Shown here piece after piece: positions 3 to 62,427 of a stretch of 64,000 nucleotides of DNA (position 1 is the stretch's first letter; every line of letters starts with the position of its first letter). Location of the stretch: the NCBI RefSeq assembly GCF_014203605.1, contig NZ_JACHJJ010000016.1, positions 62,001 to 126,000 on the forward strand, in the 5' to 3' direction. The translations under genes and the position numbers were made by a program. This stretch comes from Thiemannella venezuelensis. Its GTDB lineage: Bacteria > Actinomycetota > Actinomycetes > Streptosporangiales > Streptosporangiaceae. Below the pieces are notes generated by a model. It did not search any database. It was not told the origin of the DNA and was given only the letters and a program-made list of their open reading frames with translations.

Positions 3-575
3 CGGCGGCTGGTCCAGGGAGTGGAAGGCGTCCGGGTCGCGGTGGAGGCACGGCTGGGGCCGCGGATGTTCGAGCGGTTCGGTGTCGACCTGGTGACCGG
101 CGTCTTCATCACCGGAATCCCGGAGACGGCCGCACCGCTCGTGCCGATGGCGGTCCCCGGGGTCGTCCAGCCTGACTACCTGCTCTATCCCCTGGTGGAC
201 ACTGTCGCCGACAAGGTCGCGGCGATGAGCGAGCGCAAGCAGGACCGGCCCAGCACCCGATTTCGTGATCTGGTGGACATCGTGCTGGTCGCACGGAACT
301 GCCCGCTCCAGGCGCGGGATCTCCGTGCGGCGTTCGCCTCGGAACGGCTGCGCCGCGCGCTGCCCGAGGTCGTCGCGCTCGACGTTCCGGATGAGAAGCT
401 CTGGCGCGCCGGGTATGCGAGCGTCGCACGCGACGCCGACGTGCCGAAGGATCTGGACGAGGCGCTCGGGATCGCGAAGGCGCTGGTGGATCCGGTGCTT
501 GACGGCCGGGTGCGGGCGGGACGCTGGGAACCCGCCGCCATGACGTGGGGTGACGGTCCGGTACGGCTCTGCTGA
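3..575 (+). CDS. AbiEii/AbiGii-type nucleotidyltransferase (5' partial)
   Basis: The reading frame is already open at the window edge, so the N-terminus lies outside; about 190 residues are present. The block DTVADKVAAMSER followed by RFRDLVDIVLVA is the conserved helix region of the AbiEii/AbiGii toxin family (DUF1814), DNA-polymerase-beta-like nucleotidyltransferases that act as toxin in type IV toxin-antitoxin or abortive-infection pairs. The N-terminal GS-D-D catalytic segment is not visible here. Any antitoxin partner (AbiEi) would lie upstream, outside the window. It ends 34 bases before a shortened CHAT gene, which suggests a defence-type neighbourhood. The family call rests on the C-terminal half only. 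Confidence 0.7.
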   Translation, partial: RRLVQGVEGVRVAVEARLGPRMFERFGVDLVTGVFITGIPETAAPLVPMAVPGVVQPDYLLYPLVDTVADKVAAMSERKQDRPSTRFRDLVDIVLVARNCPLQARDLRAAFASERLRRALPEVVALDVPDEKLWRAGYASVARDADVPKDLDEALGIAKALVDPVLDGRVRAGRWEPAAMTWGDGPVRLC

Positions 576-3037: not shown

Positions 3038-4288
3038 ATGTTCCGGTCACTGGGCAACCGCAACTACCGGCTCTTCGCGATCGGCGGCGTGGTCTCCAAC
3101 GTCGGCGGGTGGATGCAGCGCACCGCGCAGGACCTGCTGGTCCTGGACCTCGCGGACGGGAGCTCCGCCGCCGTCGCCCTGGGCGTGACCACCGCGCTGC
3201 AGTTCCTGCCGATGGTGGTGTTCGGGCTCTGGGGCGGCATGCTCGCCGACCGCTACCCCAAGCGGAAGCTGCTCTTCGTCGCCCAGTCGCTCCTGGGCCT
3301 GCTCGCGCTGACCATGGGCGTGCTCACCGTGACCGGCGTCGCGCAGGTCTGGCACGTCTGGGTGATGGCCTTCGCGCTCGGCCTCATCGCCTGCGTCGAG
3401 GTGCCGACCCGGCAGTCGTTCGTGGTCGAGATGGTCGGCCGCAAGGACCTGTCCAACGCGATCGCGCTGAACGCCTCCAGCTTCAACCTGGCCCGCGTGG
3501 TCGGCCCCGCCGTCGCGGGTGTGCTGATCGCCGTGCTCGGCGGGACCGGGCCGATCTTCCTGATCAACTCGGTCTCGTTCCTGGCCGTGCTCGGCGGCCT
3601 GGCGATGATGCGCGCCTCGGAGCTCACCACCCCCGAGCCGGTGCCCCGGGAGAAGGGCCAGCTCCGCGAGGGCCTGCGCTACGTCCTGGAGCGGCAGGAG
3701 CTGCTCATGCCGATCCTGCTGATCGGCTTCGTGTCGCTGGTCACGCAGTCGTTCTCGATGTCGATAGCGCTGATGGCCGGGGAGGTCTTCGGTTCGGGCG
3801 CGGCCTCCTTCGGGCTGGCCTCCAGCATGTTCGCGGTGGGCGCGCTGGGCGGCGCGCTCATGGCGGCCCGGCGGGTCAGGCCCAGCAGGAGGCTGCTGAT
3901 CGGCGGCGCGGTCTCGTTCGGCCTGCTCCAGATCCTCACCGGCCTGGCCCCGTGGTACCCGCTCTACCTGCTCCTGCTCGTCCCCGCCGGCGTCGCGCTG
4001 ATCTCCGTCAACACCTCCGCGAACTCCAGCGTCCAGCTCGCCGTCTCGCCGGAGATGCGCGGCCGGGTGATGGGCATCTACGTGCTGGTCTTCACCGGCG
4101 GCGCCCCGATCGGCGCGCCGCTGATCGGCTGGATCTCCGATCTGGGCGGTCCGCGCGCAGGCGTGGTGATCGGCGGGGCGCTCACGCTGGCCGGGGTCGG
4201 TGCGGCGATAATGCTGGCGAAGGTGATCGGCAGGAGGTCGCATGCGACTGTTCGCGGCGTTGCTGCCGCCGCAGCGGGCGCGCGATGA
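3038..4288 (+). CDS. MFS exporter (MFS_3 / EntS-like)
   Basis: 416 residues with about 12 membrane helices. The opening MFRSLGNRNYRLFAIGGVVSNVGGWMQR and the loop GMLADRYPKRKLL (motif A, GxLaDRxgrkxxl) are typical of the MFS_3 group of proton-driven drug and siderophore exporters of the cytoplasmic membrane. ATG 3038 matches the family's usual N-terminus and has GGAGG at 3022-3026. The same frame stays open and coding-like upstream to the marR stop, with GTG at 2984 and 3017 as alternatives, so a basic, Ala-rich N-terminal extension is possible. It follows the MarR gene, which probably regulates it. Substrate unknown. It overlaps the next gene by 47 bases. Confidence 0.85.
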   Translation: MFRSLGNRNYRLFAIGGVVSNVGGWMQRTAQDLLVLDLADGSSAAVALGVTTALQFLPMVVFGLWGGMLADRYPKRKLLFVAQSLLGLLALTMGVLTVTGVAQVWHVWVMAFALGLIACVEVPTRQSFVVEMVGRKDLSNAIALNASSFNLARVVGPAVAGVLIAVLGGTGPIFLINSVSFLAVLGGLAMMRASELTTPEPVPREKGQLREGLRYVLERQELLMPILLIGFVSLVTQSFSMSIALMAGEVFGSGAASFGLASSMFAVGALGGALMAARRVRPSRRLLIGGAVSFGLLQILTGLAPWYPLYLLLLVPAGVALISVNTSANSSVQLAVSPEMRGRVMGIYVLVFTGGAPIGAPLIGWISDLGGPRAGVVIGGALTLAGVGAAIMLAKVIGRRSHATVRGVAAAAAGAR

Positions 4289-4904
4289 GCTCGCGCGCGC
4301 GCTGGAACCCCACCGCGCCGCCTGGCCGCGCCTGCGCTGGGCCGATCCGGGGAACTGGCATCTGACGCTGGCGTTCCTGGGGGAGGTGGCCGAGGAGGTC
4401 CTGCCCGAGCTGGAGGTCCGGCTCGCGCGCGCCGCCTCCCGCCACGCGCCGATGACGCTGGCGTTCACCGGTGCCGGGGCGTTCCCCTCGGCCCGCCGGG
4501 CGCGGGTCCTCTGGGCGGGGCTGCGCGACTGCGCGGACCCGCCCGGCGAGACGGGTCCGCACAGCGAGCCGGGCCGGTGGGGCGGCCGCCCGCGGGACGG
4601 CGCGGACCCGCGGCGGGGACGTCCCCGGATCGTCCGCCTGGCCGAGTCCGTCAGGGCGGGGGCCCGGCGGGCGGGAGCCGTACAGGTGGACGAGAGCAAG
4701 CGGTTCCGCCCGCACCTGACCCTGGCCAGGTCGCGGTTCGACGCCGACGTGAGCCCCCTGGTCGGGGCCCTCGGCCCGTTCGCCGGGACCCCCTGGGAGG
4801 CGGGAGCCGTCCACCTGGTGCGGAGCCGCCTCGGGGCCGAGATCCGGTACGAGACCGTGGCGGAATGGCCCCTTGCGGCACGGGCACCCGGTGGTCGGGG
4901 CTAG
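4242..4904 (+). CDS. thpR: RNA 2',3'-cyclic phosphodiesterase
   Basis: 220 residues. Two HxT motifs, H40-L-T in NWHLTLAFLGEV and H158-L-T in FRPHLTLARSR, form the active site of the 2H phosphoesterase superfamily (ThpR/LigT), which opens 2',3'-cyclic phosphates on RNA ends; older names call it 2'-5' RNA ligase. Usual length is 175-190; the excess comes from a Gly/Arg/Pro-rich insertion at about residues 98-128 between the two halves. It begins inside the MFS gene (47-base overlap), so translation is coupled, although the functions look unrelated. Confidence 0.88.
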   Translation: MRLFAALLPPQRARDELARALEPHRAAWPRLRWADPGNWHLTLAFLGEVAEEVLPELEVRLARAASRHAPMTLAFTGAGAFPSARRARVLWAGLRDCADPPGETGPHSEPGRWGGRPRDGADPRRGRPRIVRLAESVRAGARRAGAVQVDESKRFRPHLTLARSRFDADVSPLVGALGPFAGTPWEAGAVHLVRSRLGAEIRYETVAEWPLAARAPGGRG

Positions 4905-18372: not shown

Positions 18373-20256
18373 TCACGGGGAGCTCTGCGGCCAGCTCCCG
18401 TCGGGGAACGCACTGCCGGTCGTGTTCGCCATGATGACCTGGTCGTTCTCGGAGAGCCCTTCGACGATCTCGACGTACTGGTCGCCGCGGACGCCGGTCT
18501 TCACCGCCCGGTGCTCGCCGTCCCGGATCGTGACCACCGGCGAGCCGTCCGAACCGGTCCTCACGGCCTGCGCCGGGACGTAGACCGTCTCCTCCGACTC
18601 CTCGACCGTCACCGTGACCGTGGCGCTCTGGCCGACCAGGAGGTCCTTCGGCGGGTCGTCGAAGGCGACGGTGACCGCGTACCGGACGAGCCGGTCCGTG
18701 GCGGTCGCGGCGGGATCGATGCGGGTGACCGTGCCGGGGTGCTTCTCGCCGCGGAGGGCGGCCAGGGTGATCGTCGCCCGCTGGCCGAGTCTCAGCTTCC
18801 CGATGTCGGACTCGGTGAACAGCGCCGACACCTGGAGCTCGTCGAGGTCGCCCAGGGTGACGAACGCGCCGGTGCCCGCGCTGTCGCCGACGGCTCCGGC
18901 CACGGACAGGACCGTCCCCGCCTTCGGGGCGACGATCCGCACGCCCGCGAACTCCTCCTCGGCGTCGGTCAGCTCGGCCTCCGCCCGCTTCACCTCGGCC
19001 TCGGCCTGCTCCACGCCGGGCTCGCGCCGCGCGCCGCCGGTCCCGCCGGCGGCGGTGGTCCCGGTGCCGTCGCGGCCTGCCGCCGTGCCGCCCGTGCCGG
19101 TCGGCGAGGCCGTTCCGGCGGTGCCCGTCCCGCTCGTCCGGGGGGTCGTGCCGGTGCCGCTGCCCTGCCCCGCGCAGGCGGTGGAGGCGTCCGGCGCGGG
19201 GGTGCCCCCTGCGGTCGGCCGGGAACCCGCGCCGGCCGTGGGCGTCGCGCTCGGCGTGGCGCCCGCGCCGGTCTGCGCCGTGGGCCGCGAGGAGGCCGCG
19301 GGGGAGGCCGGCTCCCGGCTCGCGGACGGGCCCCCGCCCGGCGCCGCCGACGGGGGCGCGGGCGGCGTGGCCGTGGCAGTGGCAGTGGCCGTGACGGTGG
19401 CAGTGGCCGTGACGGTGGCAGTGGCCGTGACGGTGGCGGTGGCGGTGGCGGTGGCGGTGGCGGTGACCGTGACGGTCACGGTGGGGGTCGCCGTGACCGT
19501 GACCGTCGGCACGGGCCGGGGCTCGGGGGGAACGGAGGCGGAGGGGGACGGCGACGCCGGGCCGGGCGTCGTGGCCGGAGCGTGGGTGTAGGCGGCGGGT
19601 ACGGCGCCGCCTGCGGGAGGGATCCGCCCCGGCTGCTCCGCCGCGGCCGGCCCGGACGGCGCCGCCGACCCGGACCCGGACCCGGTCGGGCCGGGGGCCG
19701 CGGTGGCGGCGGGACGGCCCGACGGGGCCGGGCCACCCGTGGCGGCGGGGGTCCTCGTGGCTGCGGGGGTCCTCGTGGCGGCCGCCCCGCCCGTGGGCGG
19801 GCAGCTCGCCTGAGGGGACGGCCCGGACCCGGTCTGCGTCCGGGCGGTGGCCGTACCGCCGGAACCGCTGGAGGAACCGCCGCTCTCCGCCTCCTGCAGG
19901 GACTCCCGGGCGGCGGCGAGCCGGGCCCGGGCGGCGGCGAGGCGCTCCCGGGCGGCGGTGGAGTCGATCCTGGCGAGCACGTCGCCCTCGCCGACCTCGT
20001 CCCCGGCCTTCACGTAGACCCGGGTGACCTTCCCCGAAGAGCCGAAGGCCAGTTCGCGGGTGTCGTCATCGACGGTGCCGCCCGCCGCGGACACCGCGGC
20101 CGTGACCGTTCCCCGCCTGGCCGCGGCGAGTTCGACCCGGGGCGCCTCGGACGTGTCGCCGCCCGTCGCGTAGATCGCGCCCGCTCCCGCCAGGACGAGG
20201 GCGGCCAGGACCGGTCCGCCCGTCCGCAGGGTCTTCGGGAGATTGCTCGGTCTCAT
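18373..20256 (-). CDS. periplasmic-adaptor-like (HlyD/MacA) protein with very long linker
   Basis: 627 residues versus about 380 for the neighbour of the same family. N-terminal membrane anchor (9-30), lipoyl half GKVTRVYVKAGDEVGEGDVLARID, a first coiled-coil arm (AARERLAAARARLAAARESLQEAE), then about 290 residues of Gly/Ser/Thr/Pro-rich low complexity (about 122-410) with an alternating Thr-Val/Thr-Ala tract, then the second arm (VEQAEAEVKRAEAELTDAEEE), the second lipoyl half RIVAPKAGTVLSVAGAVGD and the beta-barrel and membrane-proximal domains. The linker sits exactly at the hairpin tip that in Gram-negative pumps meets the outer channel. Divergent from the 20404 adaptor; direct-repeat boxes lie in the shared promoter region. 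Confidence 0.85.
   Translation of the reverse strand: MRPSNLPKTLRTGGPVLAALVLAGAGAIYATGGDTSEAPRVELAAARRGTVTAAVSAAGGTVDDDTRELAFGSSGKVTRVYVKAGDEVGEGDVLARIDSTAARERLAAARARLAAARESLQEAESGGSSSGSGGTATARTQTGSGPSPQASCPPTGGAAATRTPAATRTPAATGGPAPSGRPAATAAPGPTGSGSGSAAPSGPAAAEQPGRIPPAGGAVPAAYTHAPATTPGPASPSPSASVPPEPRPVPTVTVTATPTVTVTVTATATATATATVTATATVTATATVTATATATATPPAPPSAAPGGGPSASREPASPAASSRPTAQTGAGATPSATPTAGAGSRPTAGGTPAPDASTACAGQGSGTGTTPRTSGTGTAGTASPTGTGGTAAGRDGTGTTAAGGTGGARREPGVEQAEAEVKRAEAELTDAEEEFAGVRIVAPKAGTVLSVAGAVGDSAGTGAFVTLGDLDELQVSALFTESDIGKLRLGQRATITLAALRGEKHPGTVTRIDPAATATDRLVRYAVTVAFDDPPKDLLVGQSATVTVTVEESEETVYVPAQAVRTGSDGSPVVTIRDGEHRAVKTGVRGDQYVEIVEGLSENDQVIMANTTGSAFPDGSWPQSSP
19366..19507 (-). 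repeat. low-complexity 6/12-bp repeats encoding Thr-Val/Thr-Ala tract
   Basis: The plus strand reads runs of GTGGCAGTGGCC, GTGACGGTGGCA and GTGGCG. In the adaptor's frame this is an alternating Thr-Ala/Thr-Val tract of about 45 residues, a strongly beta-prone sequence inside the long linker. Units of 6 and 12 bp imply expansion by slippage and probable length variation between strains. Confidence 0.8.
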
Positions 20257-44728: not shown

Positions 44729-46255
44729 TCAGCTCGTGGGGAAGACGTCCGCGGTGCGGATGCGGTCGCGGATGTAGACGCCGGACTGGTTGAGCACCCC
44801 GGTGCCGGCGTAGGTGCCGCCCGAGCAGGTGCCGGGCTTGAAGGCGGCGCTGCTCTCACCGGCGTCGGAGTAGGTCCAGTTGGCGTAACCGATCTTCAGC
44901 TGGTCCAGCATGTCGAGCCAGGCGGCGGTGCCGGCGAGGTCGACCTCGCCGTTCCCGCTGGCGGTCACCGTGCCGAACTCGGAGACGAACAGCGGCAGCT
45001 TCTCGGCCGCCCGGCTCACCACGTGCCGGTAGTTGTCCTTGTGCGAGGCGGCGTAGAAGTGGAAGGCGTACATGATGTTCTCGGCCTTGACCGGGTTGTT
45101 GACGATCTCGGTCTCGTTGGAGCCCTCCGAGACGCCCAGCGACGACCAGGCCCGGGTGCCGACGATGATCACGGCGTCCGGGTCCGCCGCCCGGATCACC
45201 GGGATGACCTGCTCGGCGTAGCTCTTGATCGACGCCCAGCTCACCCCGTTGGGCTCGTTGGCGATCTCGTAGATGACGTTGTCCTTACCCGCGTTGCGGG
45301 CGGCGACCGAGGCGAAGAAGGTCTTCGCGCGGGCCAGGTTGTGGTTGGGGTCGCCCGGCGTCAGCGTGTGGAAGTCGATGATCGAGTACAGGCCGCGCGC
45401 GGTGGCCATGTCGACGTACTTGTTCACCTGCTCGGTGAAGGCGGCCGGGTTGGTCTCGTACCCGCCCTCCTGCACGTACATCGAGATCCGGAAGAGGTCG
45501 GCCTTCCAGTCGCCGGCCAGCGCGTCCAGCGAGGCGTCGTTGTAGCACTTGGCGAACCACTGGATGCCGTGGGTGCTCATGCCGCGCAGCTGGATCGGGC
45601 GGTTGTACCGGTTGCACAGGTGGACGCCGCAGACGTGCAGCTTGCCGTTGATCCCGACGGGGGTACCGGTGGCGGGGGGCTTCGTGGCGGTCGGCGTCGG
45701 TGTCGGGGTGGCCGTCCGGGTGGGCGTGGGGGTGGGCGTGGCCGTCCGGGTCGCGGTGGGGCTGGGCGTCGGCGTGGCCGTCCGGGTGGGGGTGGGCGTG
45801 GGGGTGGGCGGCGCGGGCGGCCTGGTGGCCGTGTCGCTGCAGGTGACGCCGTTGAGGGTGAACGTCGCCGGGATCGGGTTGCCGCCGGTCGTGCTTCCGA
45901 TGAACCCGATGTGCGCCGACTCCCCGGTGGCCAGCGACTTGTTGTAGCCGACGTTGGCGGCGGTGACGGCGGTGCCGTTCTGCTCGTAGACCGCCGACCA
46001 GCCGTTCCCGACCTTCTGGCCGGAGCTCGGGAAGGAGAAGCCGAGCTTCCAGCCGTTGACGGGGGCGCCGAGGTTCTTGATGGCGATGTTGGCGCTGAAG
46101 CCGCCCTGCCAGCTGCTGGTGGTGTAGGTGACCGCGCAGCCGGCGGCGGTGGCCATGGCGTTCCCGGCCGGCATGGCCGCCAGCGAGCCCAGGGCGAGCG
46201 CGACGGTGGTGCCGATCCCCAGCAGTCCGCGGCGCGGACGCGCGAGAGGTTTCAC
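44729..46255 (-). CDS. secreted cellulase, CBM2 plus GH5
   Basis: 508 residues from GTG 46255 (AAAGG upstream). Signal peptide to about residue 36, then a CBM2 cellulose-binding domain (CAVTYTTSSWQGGFSANIAIKNLGAPVNGWKLGFSF) with conserved Trp residues, a 55-residue Pro/Thr linker with repeated TPTPTRTAT, and a GH5 catalytic domain of subfamily 2 type. Acid/base Glu334 lies in EIANEPNG and the nucleophile Glu426 in FVSEFGTV. It is an endo-beta-1,4-glucanase acting outside the cell on cellulose. A GAAACTTTC palindrome 274 bases upstream may bring LacI-type control. Confidence 0.95.
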   Translation of the reverse strand: MKPLARPRRGLLGIGTTVALALGSLAAMPAGNAMATAAGCAVTYTTSSWQGGFSANIAIKNLGAPVNGWKLGFSFPSSGQKVGNGWSAVYEQNGTAVTAANVGYNKSLATGESAHIGFIGSTTGGNPIPATFTLNGVTCSDTATRPPAPPTPTPTPTRTATPTPSPTATRTATPTPTPTRTATPTPTPTATKPPATGTPVGINGKLHVCGVHLCNRYNRPIQLRGMSTHGIQWFAKCYNDASLDALAGDWKADLFRISMYVQEGGYETNPAAFTEQVNKYVDMATARGLYSIIDFHTLTPGDPNHNLARAKTFFASVAARNAGKDNVIYEIANEPNGVSWASIKSYAEQVIPVIRAADPDAVIIVGTRAWSSLGVSEGSNETEIVNNPVKAENIMYAFHFYAASHKDNYRHVVSRAAEKLPLFVSEFGTVTASGNGEVDLAGTAAWLDMLDQLKIGYANWTYSDAGESSAAFKPGTCSGGTYAGTGVLNQSGVYIRDRIRTADVFPTS

Positions 46256-60204: not shown

Positions 60205-61452
60205 CTACGGGCGCGGCGTGGTCCAGAGGGCGGAGATGGGAAGGCAGGTGAGGCCGTCTCCGAAGCTCAGGGACTGCGACCCGCAGTACAGGACGAACCC
60301 CGCGAGGAACCGTGTTCCAAGGCGGTTCCGGAGCAGGCGCAGCCCCTTGAAGTCTTCGGATCGCACGGTCTCCGCCGCTTTCACCTCGATGCCGATGACC
60401 CGGCCGGAGTTGTCCTCGATGATGCCGTCGACCTCGTGTTTATCGCGATCACGATAGTGATAGATGCTTGCTCCGATGTCGGACCATGAGAGCTGCCGGG
60501 CGATCTCGCCGAGCACGAAGTTCTCCATCAATCCGCCGACGGAGAGATCTGCCAGTGGTCCTGCAGTGAGGTGGGCGGCGAGGCCGGTATCAACGAAAGT
60601 GACTTTGGGGGTCGCCAGCGCACGGGTGGTCGCGTTGGTCGACCATCCAGGGATGAGACGGATCAAGTAGATCGTTTCCAGGATCTCCAAATATCTCTGG
60701 ACGGTCGAGCGGACGATGCCCAGCTCGCCTGCGAGCCGATTGGCACTCAGCAGTCCTCCGGTCTGAGCCGCGAGCAGCGAGATCAGCCGTCGCATGTCTC
60801 CGGCGCGCTGGATGTCCGCCACCTGCTTGATGTCACGCGAGATGAGATCATCGATGTAGCTCTGGAAGAAACGCTGACGCCGCCGTGGTGTTTCCCGCTG
60901 GACCGCTTCGGGGAATCCCCCTCGTTCCACTCTCGTCAGGTAGTCCTTCCGGCGTAGGTCTCGCGACTCTGCCCGGAGGTCGGCGCCGTGCGTGAACGCC
61001 GCGTCGACGAAGCCGTCCGGTTCGTCGTCGATCTCTCCTTGGGAGAGCGGCCAGAGCTCGATCGTCTCGGATCTCCCCGGCAGACTGTCGGGCAGGCTGC
61101 TCAGGCTGAGCAGCCGCGCGGACCCCGTCAGGAGGAACCGCCCCGGTCGTGGGTCTCGGTCGACCAGGTACTTGATGGCAAGCCAGAGATCGGGAACACG
61201 TTGAACCTCGTCGATGAGCATCAGTCCGTCGTGGTCGATGAATCGGATCGGGTCTTCTACCGCCGCGCTGCGCGTCAGAGGATGGTCCAGGAACCTGGTT
61301 GTTCCGTTGGGATGCTGGCGGACGACGAGTTCGGCGAGTGTGCTCTTTCCCACTTGGCGGGCGCCGTTGATGACGACGACGCGCGTGTCGAGGAGCGCTT
61401 CCGCTACAAGATCGGAAGCTCGACGAGGGCGGTAGTCAGTGGCTCTCCGCAT
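60205..61452 (-). CDS. AAA ATPase with DUF4143 domain
   Basis: 415 residues. Walker A GARQVGKS at 30-37, Walker B LMLIDEVQRVPDLW, arginine-finger-like LTGSARLLSLSSLPDSLPGR, a winged-helix GLLSANRLAGELGIVRSTVQRYLEIL, and C-terminal nuclease-like DUF4143 part with HEVDGII...GIEVKAAETV (D-x(n)-E-x-K pattern of the PD-(D/E)XK fold). Widespread, mobile, patchily distributed family of unknown role, perhaps in conflict or toxin systems. Its upstream region is occupied by a 23-bp tandem repeat array, which is unusual. Confidence 0.88.
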   Translation of the reverse strand: MRRATDYRPRRASDLVAEALLDTRVVVINGARQVGKSTLAELVVRQHPNGTTRFLDHPLTRSAAVEDPIRFIDHDGLMLIDEVQRVPDLWLAIKYLVDRDPRPGRFLLTGSARLLSLSSLPDSLPGRSETIELWPLSQGEIDDEPDGFVDAAFTHGADLRAESRDLRRKDYLTRVERGGFPEAVQRETPRRRQRFFQSYIDDLISRDIKQVADIQRAGDMRRLISLLAAQTGGLLSANRLAGELGIVRSTVQRYLEILETIYLIRLIPGWSTNATTRALATPKVTFVDTGLAAHLTAGPLADLSVGGLMENFVLGEIARQLSWSDIGASIYHYRDRDKHEVDGIIEDNSGRVIGIEVKAAETVRSEDFKGLRLLRNRLGTRFLAGFVLYCGSQSLSFGDGLTCLPISALWTTPRP

Positions 61453-61475
61453 CCTCCCACCCTAGCTGGATCGGC

Positions 61476-61681
61476 AATTTGTCGCTGGGTCTGTGCGCAG
61501 ATTGCCGATGAGGTGACGAGCGATTTGCCGATACCCTGATGCGCAGATTGCCGACCTATCGGTGCGCAGTTTGCCGATGGGTGTGTGGTCGTTCTGCCGA
61601 GGGATACGTGGGCAGTCTGCCGAAGATCCATGCCTGTGCTGCCGGGGGATCCGCCGATGATCTACCGACTTCGCGGAGGGG
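61476..61681. repeat. 23-bp degenerate tandem repeat array
   Basis: A core TGCCGA recurs at exact 23-base steps (GCCGA at 61504, 61527, 61550, 61573, 61596 and 61619; degenerate copies at 61481, 61641 and 61664). Aligned units give a consensus close to AGATTGCCGATGGG then TNNGTGCGC. About seven good and two decayed copies, last ones 22 and 23 long. The period is not a multiple of three, so it is not a coding repeat. It begins 24 bases upstream of the DUF4143 ATPase start and ends 12 bases from the IclR stop. It resembles an iteron or a multi-site operator. Confidence 0.75.
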
Positions 61682-61692
61682 GGGAAGGACGG

Positions 61693-62325
61693 TCAGGACA
61701 GGGAGCGGGAGAGGGCCTCGGCGGCGGTGGTGAGGAGGGGGCCGGTGACGGCGGGGTCGAGGGGGGCGAAGGAGATCACGCCGACGGAGGCCTCCAGCCA
61801 CGGCAGGCCCGGGACGGGGGCGGCGATGCCGTGGGCGCCCTCCTGGAGCTGGCCCTCGGTGGCGACGTAGCCGGTGCGGCCCCCGCGCAGGGCGAGGATG
61901 GCCAGACCCGCCGCGCCCCTGCCCAGCGGGTGCCGGGAGCCCTCGCGGTAGGCGACGTGCATGTCCGTCCAGGACGGCTCGACCACCGCCACCGCGAGGC
62001 CGTCGTCGCCCTCGGCGATGGTGAGGTGCGCGGTCGCGCCGACCTCCTCGGCGAGCCGGCGCAGGGTGGGCAGCGCCCCCTCGCGGAGCAGGGGCTGCAC
62101 GGCGCGCGCCAGGACGAGCACGCCGAAGCCGAGATGCGCCCGCCCCTCGCCGTCCCGGCGGACGAACCCTCCGTCCTGCAGGGTCGTGAGCAGCCGGTAG
62201 ACCGCCGGACGGCTCAGCCCCAGCTCGGCCGCGAGCTCGGTGGGGGTGCGCCCCCGGTGGTCGTCGGCGAGCAGGCGGAGCAGGCGCAGGCCGCGCTCCA
62301 GGGTCTGCGAGGACTCGGCCGCCAT
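61693..62325 (-). CDS. IclR-family transcriptional regulator
   Basis: About 210 residues from ATG 62325 (GGAGA eight bases upstream); the frame is open further but the longer version would cover its own operator. HTH: SQTLERGLRLLRLLADDHRGRTPTELAAELGLSRPAVYRLLTTLQDGGFVRR; C-terminal IclR effector domain with AYREGSRHPLGRGAAGLAIL and VGVISFAPL. The palindrome 28-44 bases upstream matches that at hmgA, so it is the likely regulator of homogentisate catabolism, functionally like pseudomonad HmgR, as well as of itself. Confidence 0.9.
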   Translation of the reverse strand: MAAESSQTLERGLRLLRLLADDHRGRTPTELAAELGLSRPAVYRLLTTLQDGGFVRRDGEGRAHLGFGVLVLARAVQPLLREGALPTLRRLAEEVGATAHLTIAEGDDGLAVAVVEPSWTDMHVAYREGSRHPLGRGAAGLAILALRGGRTGYVATEGQLQEGAHGIAAPVPGLPWLEASVGVISFAPLDPAVTGPLLTTAAEALSRSLS

Positions 62326-62352
62326 CAGGACGTCTCCGGGGTCTGGCGCATG

Positions 62353-62369
62353 TCCCCGATTATCGGGGA
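62353..62369. promoter_or_regulatory. 17-bp palindrome, probable IclR auto-operator
   Basis: TCCCCGATTATCGGGGA, perfect around a central T, in the leader/promoter of the IclR gene. Shares the 11-base core CCGATTATCGG with the hmgA operator at 52711-52727. Confidence 0.65.
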
Positions 62370-62394
62370 TGGCGGGAGGCGGAGGTCTGACCGG

Positions 62395-62427
62395 CCGGTT
62401 GTCGCTTGTCATGCCGGTAACAACCGG
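62395..62427. promoter_or_regulatory. inverted repeat between IclR and acyl-AMP ligase genes
   Basis: CCGGTTGT (62395-62402) and ACAACCGG (62420-62427) are perfectly complementary, 17 bases apart, in the divergent promoter region. Could be a second operator or a hairpin. Confidence 0.35.

Follow-up and report, generated by a model that had tools for sequence, protein, structure and literature searches.

A 64,000-nucleotide stretch of the Thiemannella venezuelensis genome (contig NZ_JACHJJ010000016.1; hereafter the window) holds a tandem repeat with a 23-base step between a gene for an IclR-type regulator and a gene for a DUF4143 ATPase. The question raised by this locus is whether the repeat has a function and, if so, which protein reads it. 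A sequence-only reading of the region had considered a protein-binding array for the ATPase-nuclease itself or for a separate regulator, as well as a decaying minisatellite. Our analysis indicates that the array probably serves the ATPase gene as its operator and is read by the gene's own product through two elements of the protein, with several protomers taking part and repression lasting until a signal arrives.

The array and the gene that it precedes

The core TGCCGA occurs six times on the forward strand (positions 61503, 61526, 61549, 61572, 61595 and 61618) at steps of exactly 23, and both these coordinates and a shuffle test bear out the spacing first noticed in the sequence. Self-alignment of the intergenic region (61453-61692), a check proposed with that reading, returned lag 23 as the top self-match, with a score of 30.4 that was reached by none of 5000 dinucleotide shuffles (mean 7.5, maximum 15.2). 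Elsewhere in the window, 24 of 1054 overlapping 240-base stretches score equally high when lags 15-35 are tested, and the lags among those listed are 15, 17, 18, 24, 30 and 33, with no instance of 23. Tandem Repeats Finder reports just 2.7 copies (61494-61554). Based on the self-match and the sequence, the array comprises seven clear 16-base units in 23-base steps (61470..61623, minus strand), located at 61608-61623, 61585-61600, 61562-61577, 61539-61554, 61516-61531, 61493-61508 and 61470-61485, and two degenerate further units on the same strand (61630-61645 and 61653-61668). Read on the minus strand, the sense of the ATPase gene, the clear units are of the TCGGCAAACTGCGCAC type, and the gene-proximal unit (61470-61485) reads GCGACAAATTGCCGAT.

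In CRISPR arrays, near-identical repeats alternate with unique spacers of about 25-40 bases. A CRISPR array was rejected here, as it had been from the sequence alone, since the unit is only 22-23 bases long with about seven variable bases. Within the window's genome, the unit pattern is matched exactly nowhere outside the array; with up to two mismatches the pattern has 162 genome matches, versus 91 for the reversed control, so further targets may exist. A two-unit pattern occurs at six places outside the array, versus 11 in the control, and on the exact and two-unit counts a regulon elsewhere was discarded as a candidate. Tandem GTGGCG-/GTGGGC-like repeats are also present in the window at 19367-19506 (periods 6, 18 and 36) and at 45689-45810 (periods 6, 12, 30 and 36).

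Both flanking genes, the ATPase gene (60205..61452, start codon at 61452) and the Pfam-identified IclR-type regulator gene (61693..62412), lie on the minus strand. The array sits between the 3' end of the IclR gene and the ATPase start, and is upstream of the ATPase gene alone, not of the IclR gene. We judged the IclR gene not to be part of the system and its neighbourhood to be incidental.

A TAGGGT hexamer (61459..61464, minus strand), a -10-like TANNNT box, ends six bases ahead of the ATG, a placement that points to a leaderless transcript from a predicted promoter. Of the 114 homologues that are at least 50% identical, 61 have a TANNNT box placed 5-8 bases ahead of an in-frame ATG or GTG (6 bases in 37), compared with a mean of 6.6 and a maximum of 16 in 100 shuffles. 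The distance from the last-unit core to the start codon was 32-36 bases in 17 and 44-49 bases in 33 of the 53 measurable loci, and the last unit would thereby lie over the -35 region of the predicted leaderless promoter. This position (50 of 53 loci) also fits an activator, and the array reaches far upstream of -35, as it might if the ATPase activated its own promoter in the manner of a class II activator overlapping -35. A nuclease is easier for a cell to carry when it represses itself, however, and we consider positive autoregulation unlikely.

The ATPase gene encodes a protein of 415 residues with an AAA_14 domain (Pfam, residues 23-141, E 8.8e-25, 87.6 bits against a cut-off of 27) and a DUF4143 domain (residues 206-359, E 9.2e-40, 136.4 bits against a cut-off of 28.1). 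Within the DUF4143 match lies a match to HTH_11 (residues 222-261, E 5.6e-5) that at 23.4 bits is below its cut-off of 25, and the helices in the AlphaFold2 model (pLDDT 90.6, pTM 0.90) fit a winged helix. The protein matches the PADLOC model for PDC-S01 (PDLC04790) over residues 5-411 (E 6.8e-166), and had no match among NCBIfam models at E up to 0.001 or, by sequence, among PDB chains at E up to 0.1. Residues are numbered here from Met = 1, one more than in the AlphaFold2 model and the alignment (D341, E355 and K357 there).

Two segments of the protein are central to what follows. A predicted recognition helix (codons 248-260, 60673..60711, minus strand), which includes S249 and R253, was delimited from the AlphaFold2 helix and from the covariation of R253 with motif positions 13 and 14. 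A DUF4143 beta-hairpin (codons 328-347, 60412..60471, minus strand), with R336 at its turn, was delimited from the AlphaFold2 strands and the covariation of R336, and runs into E340-V341-D342. In the model this hairpin adjoins the predicted nuclease residues D342, E356 and K358 (codons 342-358, 60379..60429, minus strand), which come from an alignment of 43 relatives with D342 and K358 invariant and E356 conserved in at least 90%. We take these residues to be catalytic from the PD-(D/E)XK pattern. The ATPase carries the conserved D...ExK of PD-(D/E)XK nucleases and is a predicted nuclease.

Foldseek matches of the model include P. abyssi PABY2304 (2qen), STAND proteins and RuvB. The match to 2qen (E 1.2e-6) has a TM of 0.43 by query and 0.49 by target length; 0.43 is the best value by query length among the 50 matches listed, and the rmsd is at least 9 for nearly all of the listed matches, a weak superposition overall. 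The presence of STAND and AAA+ proteins among these matches, and of several equal sites at a fixed step, would suit an assembly or storage platform, on which the array mainly keeps the ATPase-nuclease oligomeric and either poised or inhibited, with transcription control as a secondary role. This is compatible with the other readings, but the position of the array relative to the predicted promoter is more simply explained by regulation, and as the main role of the array we find a platform distinctly unlikely.

Conservation of the array across the ATPase family

With the window protein as query, 67 of the 150 genomes searched at the level of the taxonomic family contained homologues, as did 112 of 297 at order level and 104 of 394 at class level. 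All homologues were found with this query, and the array rates below therefore describe its own branch. For each upstream region, nearly always of 265 bases, the best lag in the range 8-60 was determined and compared with 200 shuffles. In a first set, p was at its floor of 0.005 for 75 of 91 loci, and in 74 of these the lag was 22, 23, 44, 45 or 46; L001, L002, L009 and L010 (duplicates or fragments) and L034 (too short) were left out of this set. The named set, consisting of the best 80 of at least 475 confirmed loci, had 63 significant arrays, 62 of them with a lag of 22/23 or double, and a further set that includes a few duplicates of the first had 90 of 98, 89 in the same lag class. Eight of 172 loci were excluded for having fewer than 330 residues before the first stop.

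A non-redundant set was obtained by reducing 262 proteins to 220, with the removal of 41 that were more than 95% identical and one with a short upstream region. Among these homologues, 27-100% identical to the window protein, 181 of 220 are significant and 179 have a period of 22/23 or double; the 41 that failed the array test count against the reading of the array as the operator of this ATPase. The array is present in 106/114 homologues at 50% identity or more, 40/61 at 40-50%, 29/41 at 30-40% and 4/4 below 30%. By phylum, among the best 80 of at least 475 named loci, it was found in 41/45 Actinomycetota, 15/22 Pseudomonadota, 3/4 Verrucomicrobiota, 3/3 Acidobacteriota and 0/6 others, with a step that is mostly 23 in actinobacteria and mostly 22 elsewhere.

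Control positions within the same loci were significant in 14 of 365 cases, with none in the lag class, and the upstream regions of other open frames in 12 of 134, two of these at lag 23. One of the two (L196) precedes an open frame whose beginning resembles that of a further family ATPase; the other (L151) is an array of the family's motif type, GCGACRAATCAACCA, ahead of an open frame. In L196, at about 4236-4308, a second ATPase-like gene stands beside the first with a 23-base repeat of its own. The L151 array (Nocardia seriolae, about 782-869) is some 1.6 kb from the ATPase gene and is perhaps a solitary remnant of a lost ATPase gene.

A Pfam search across the phylum gathered more distant members at 30 loci; 10 that the P-loop pattern missed were dropped, leaving 20, one of them the window genome's own paralogue. 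Half of the 20 are significant at 0.01, at lags of 22, 23 or 46 in seven, 32 in two and 12 in one; the distant homologues L126 and L127 have the 32-base upstream period, not 22-23. In ten plasmid and phage records picked from 49 listed matches, the lag test was significant in three (L313 at 23; L315 and L316 at 22). Inverted repeats within 70 bases of the start reached p 0.01 in L317, L318 and L319 and 0.05 in L310, and were not significant in L311, L312 and L314. The more distant ATPase genes of L317-L319 thus combine strong inverted repeats near the start with no significant tandem array, as if single operators were used there.

Units within an array agree well over core positions 1-15 (0.78) and poorly over spacer positions 17-22 (0.33) in 102 loci, with peaks of agreement at positions 1-6 and 9-14 and a dip at 7-8. 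The same contrast separates the window from a same-genus orthologue, which has a 93% identical protein and the same IclR gene upstream: 12 of 112 core bases differ, compared to 20 of 42 spacer bases (Fisher p 2e-6). Selection keeps the putative sites and their spacing, not the intervening DNA. Conservation of the cores without the spacers points to predicted binding sites and not to a minisatellite, and with spacers near the level of unrelated DNA and cores kept, the array was rejected as a MINISATELLITE.

A functionless, decaying minisatellite would be in keeping with the variable copy number, from three to nine units in the 126 arrays over the cut-off, and with arrays that look freshly expanded, such as that of L130. 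The randomised spacers and retained cores, both within arrays and between orthologues, and the constancy of the period over four phyla speak strongly against it, leaving this explanation with a negligible probability. The earlier reading would have called the array a chance minisatellite had it been missing near orthologues or lacked a conserved core; it is present near orthologues and its core is conserved. The mean step is 22.65 bases, as measured by a unit finder that chains steps of 21-24 only (the lag scan covers 8-60).

Covariation between the motif and the ATPase

The motif itself varies widely across the family (CGGCAGATCCACCAC, CGACCATCTCACC, TCCGGATTGGACGG, CTTTCAATTGGTCG and CCGCGAATCGGCGA, among others), differing between clades and between paralogues. 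The window genome encodes four ATPase paralogues, one in pieces and with a stop, all with other upstream motifs; three of their arrays are significant and that of L008 is not (p 0.08). The fragmented, stop-bearing paralogue (L009-L011, contig C15) retains its 23-base array. The array of another paralogue in this genome (L006, contig C19) has two alternating unit types, CGGCTGATCGGACA and CGTCCAATCGGACA, and a best lag of 46.

We scanned 3124 residue-base pairs, controlling for overall identity, in 102 homologues that were at least 50% identical; 12 of the 114 loci in this range were left out for a low chain score or by another filter. The top five pairs all involve R253 or R336 (R253-13, 0.77; R336-5, 0.73; R336-3, 0.72; R336-6, 0.63; R253-14, 0.52), the best pair without either being S198-14 (0.49), and nine of the top 20 columns fall in the winged-helix or hairpin segments versus 3.7 expected. 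Across these 102 loci, counting readable bases, base 3 is G in 59/59 loci with R336 and in 5/33 with K336, and base 5 is A or T in 57/58 with R336 and C in 30/35 with K336. Similarly, base 13 is C in 82/87 loci with R253 and in 0/11 with another residue, and base 12 is A in 16/16 loci with P249 and in 4/83 without it.

Independent contrasts were counted on a tree that omitted residues 237-286 and 325-348. The mean numbers of supported contrasts for and against were 3.5/0 for R336-5, 4.4/0 for R336-3, 3.0/0 for R253-13, 4.8/0 for P249-12, 2.4/0 for N249-11 and 2.0/0.3 for M/Q249-11. Each test had three to seven supported pairs, with none at p 0.05 alone and some pairs showing no difference in the base, and the residues tested were picked after the data were seen.

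Other scans gave a more mixed picture. Over all pairs, a sliding-window scan of 103 loci gave the top rank to residues 193-205, outside both elements, and the next ranks to 268-280 and 328-340; for pairs of 50-70% identity, 247-259, 331-343 and 265-277 were among the best. When 65 loci were scanned by mutual information, the leading pair was S249 with motif position 12, but residues 236-282 showed no enrichment, supplying 3 of the top 30 columns versus 3.4 expected. In a second set of 76 loci below 50% identity, outside the residue-level scan (34 of the 82 eligible loci were already in the sliding-window scan), one of the other 392 windows equalled or outranked the hairpin window 332-339, and all eight top-ranking windows of 12 residues begin at 230-235, in the first HTH helix, or at 330-332, in the hairpin. 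The recognition helix 246-257 was unremarkable in this set (157 of 380 windows as good), and helix and hairpin together were equalled by 19 of 407 random window pairs. The two sets hence support the hairpin and the HTH region twice, while the evidence for what R253 and S249 do exactly comes from the first set.

These data bear directly on the possibility that a separate host regulator, such as the IclR protein or a global factor, binds the array. The IclR gene adjoins it, and defence genes are reportedly controlled by a separate repressor in the case of RptR. The array nevertheless tracks the ATPase across four phyla, its motif shifts with ATPase residues, and paralogues within one genome have different motifs; an IclR-like match was found at one of the best 80 of at least 475 named loci, and that match is weak (E 6e-5). 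The IclR protein was accordingly dropped as a candidate owner of the array, and a separate regulator, one of the two binders first envisaged, appears very unlikely. The other, the ATPase-nuclease itself, is favoured by the array in 179 of 220 homologues and by the covariation with two ATPase segments, which are what would be expected if the protein bound it.

A model of autoregulation and its relation to known systems

The likeliest reading is that the DUF4143 ATPase represses its own gene by binding co-operatively to the promoter. Each 22-23-base unit would be a bipartite site of about 14 bases, in which motif positions 3-6, in the 5' half, are read by the DUF4143 hairpin, and positions of about 11-14, in the 3' half, by the winged helix, the two reading elements being roughly one helical turn apart. 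Protomers would line up in a row, approximately one per unit, just upstream of and over the -35 region. We infer negative autoregulation and a releasing signal, with the gene kept low until the ATPase is titrated away, or switched by a nucleotide or another signal. Counting against self-reading, an ATPase-nuclease bound at its own promoter must be stopped from cutting there.

A more speculative and unlikely elaboration of the same model is that the ATPase binds as a side-by-side helical or ring-like oligomer with one protomer per unit, its nuclease domain reading a half-site, and that the promoter acts as a dock where this common defence nuclease stays scarce and inert, to be set free by invading DNA or by a signal from the cell. 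With 10.5 bases to a turn, the 22.65-base step corresponds to about 57 degrees per protomer, near one sixth of a circle. To our knowledge, a nuclease domain helping to read an operator would be unusual.

The retention of the array across four phyla, while its letters follow the protein, suggests that the ATPase is very likely a sequence-specific DNA binder. The array provides a predicted target sequence for array-bearing members of the family, together with candidate reading residues, and makes a candidate defence gene directly assayable. As far as the accessible text of the source goes, PDC-S01 ranks with the commonest candidate defence genes of prokaryotes, being the fourth most common system across prokaryotes in that dataset, and is described as an ATPase domain fused to a PD-(D/E)XK superfamily member (PMC12988326). 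The window protein matches the model of this PADLOC single-gene phage-defence candidate (AAA_14 and DUF4143) over residues 5-411. The accessible parts of the published PDC-S01 descriptions are silent on a promoter array, on self-regulation and on any recognition of sequence by the protein, and they give no tested mechanism. Searches for DUF4143, COG1373 and PDC-S01, with most subscription journals outside their range, likewise returned partial texts without mention of promoter repeats or self-binding, and a search for operator arrays with an ATPase and a nuclease returned nothing alike among the matches listed, as far as their accessible text goes.

Expression data for a family member come from Thermus thermophilus HB27, where, in the accessible part of the report, RNA of TT_P0211 (AAA_14/DUF4143) is up 6.6-fold with a plasmid present, as one of twelve plasmid-raised genes in the strain with Argonaute and not in the strain without it (PMC4406477). 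L310, a plasmid-borne homologue from another T. thermophilus strain, has no significant array in the lag test and a marginal inverted repeat, and this hint therefore concerns the family, not the array.

Among systems of known architecture, STAND and AAA+ ATPases with a winged helix (2qen, Avs5, Apaf-1, RuvB) are fold matches to the window ATPase with weak superposition, and we know of none with a promoter array of this kind. Autoregulated toxin-antitoxin operators have repeated sites over the promoter that are read by the operon's own product. Unlike these, the ATPase locus has no identified partner gene, combines ATPase, reader and nuclease in one polypeptide, and belongs to a family whose arrays have three to nine units at a fixed 22-23-base step. 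The iteron arrays of plasmid origins are tandem sites in the same orientation, about two helical turns apart, bound by the protein of the adjacent gene. The window array is likewise tandem, with units in the same orientation at about two helical turns, and a Rep gene is absent among the three genes scanned around it (ATPase, IclR regulator and AMP-binding enzyme). It differs from iterons in that it precedes a predicted promoter and that its presumed binder is an ATPase-nuclease.
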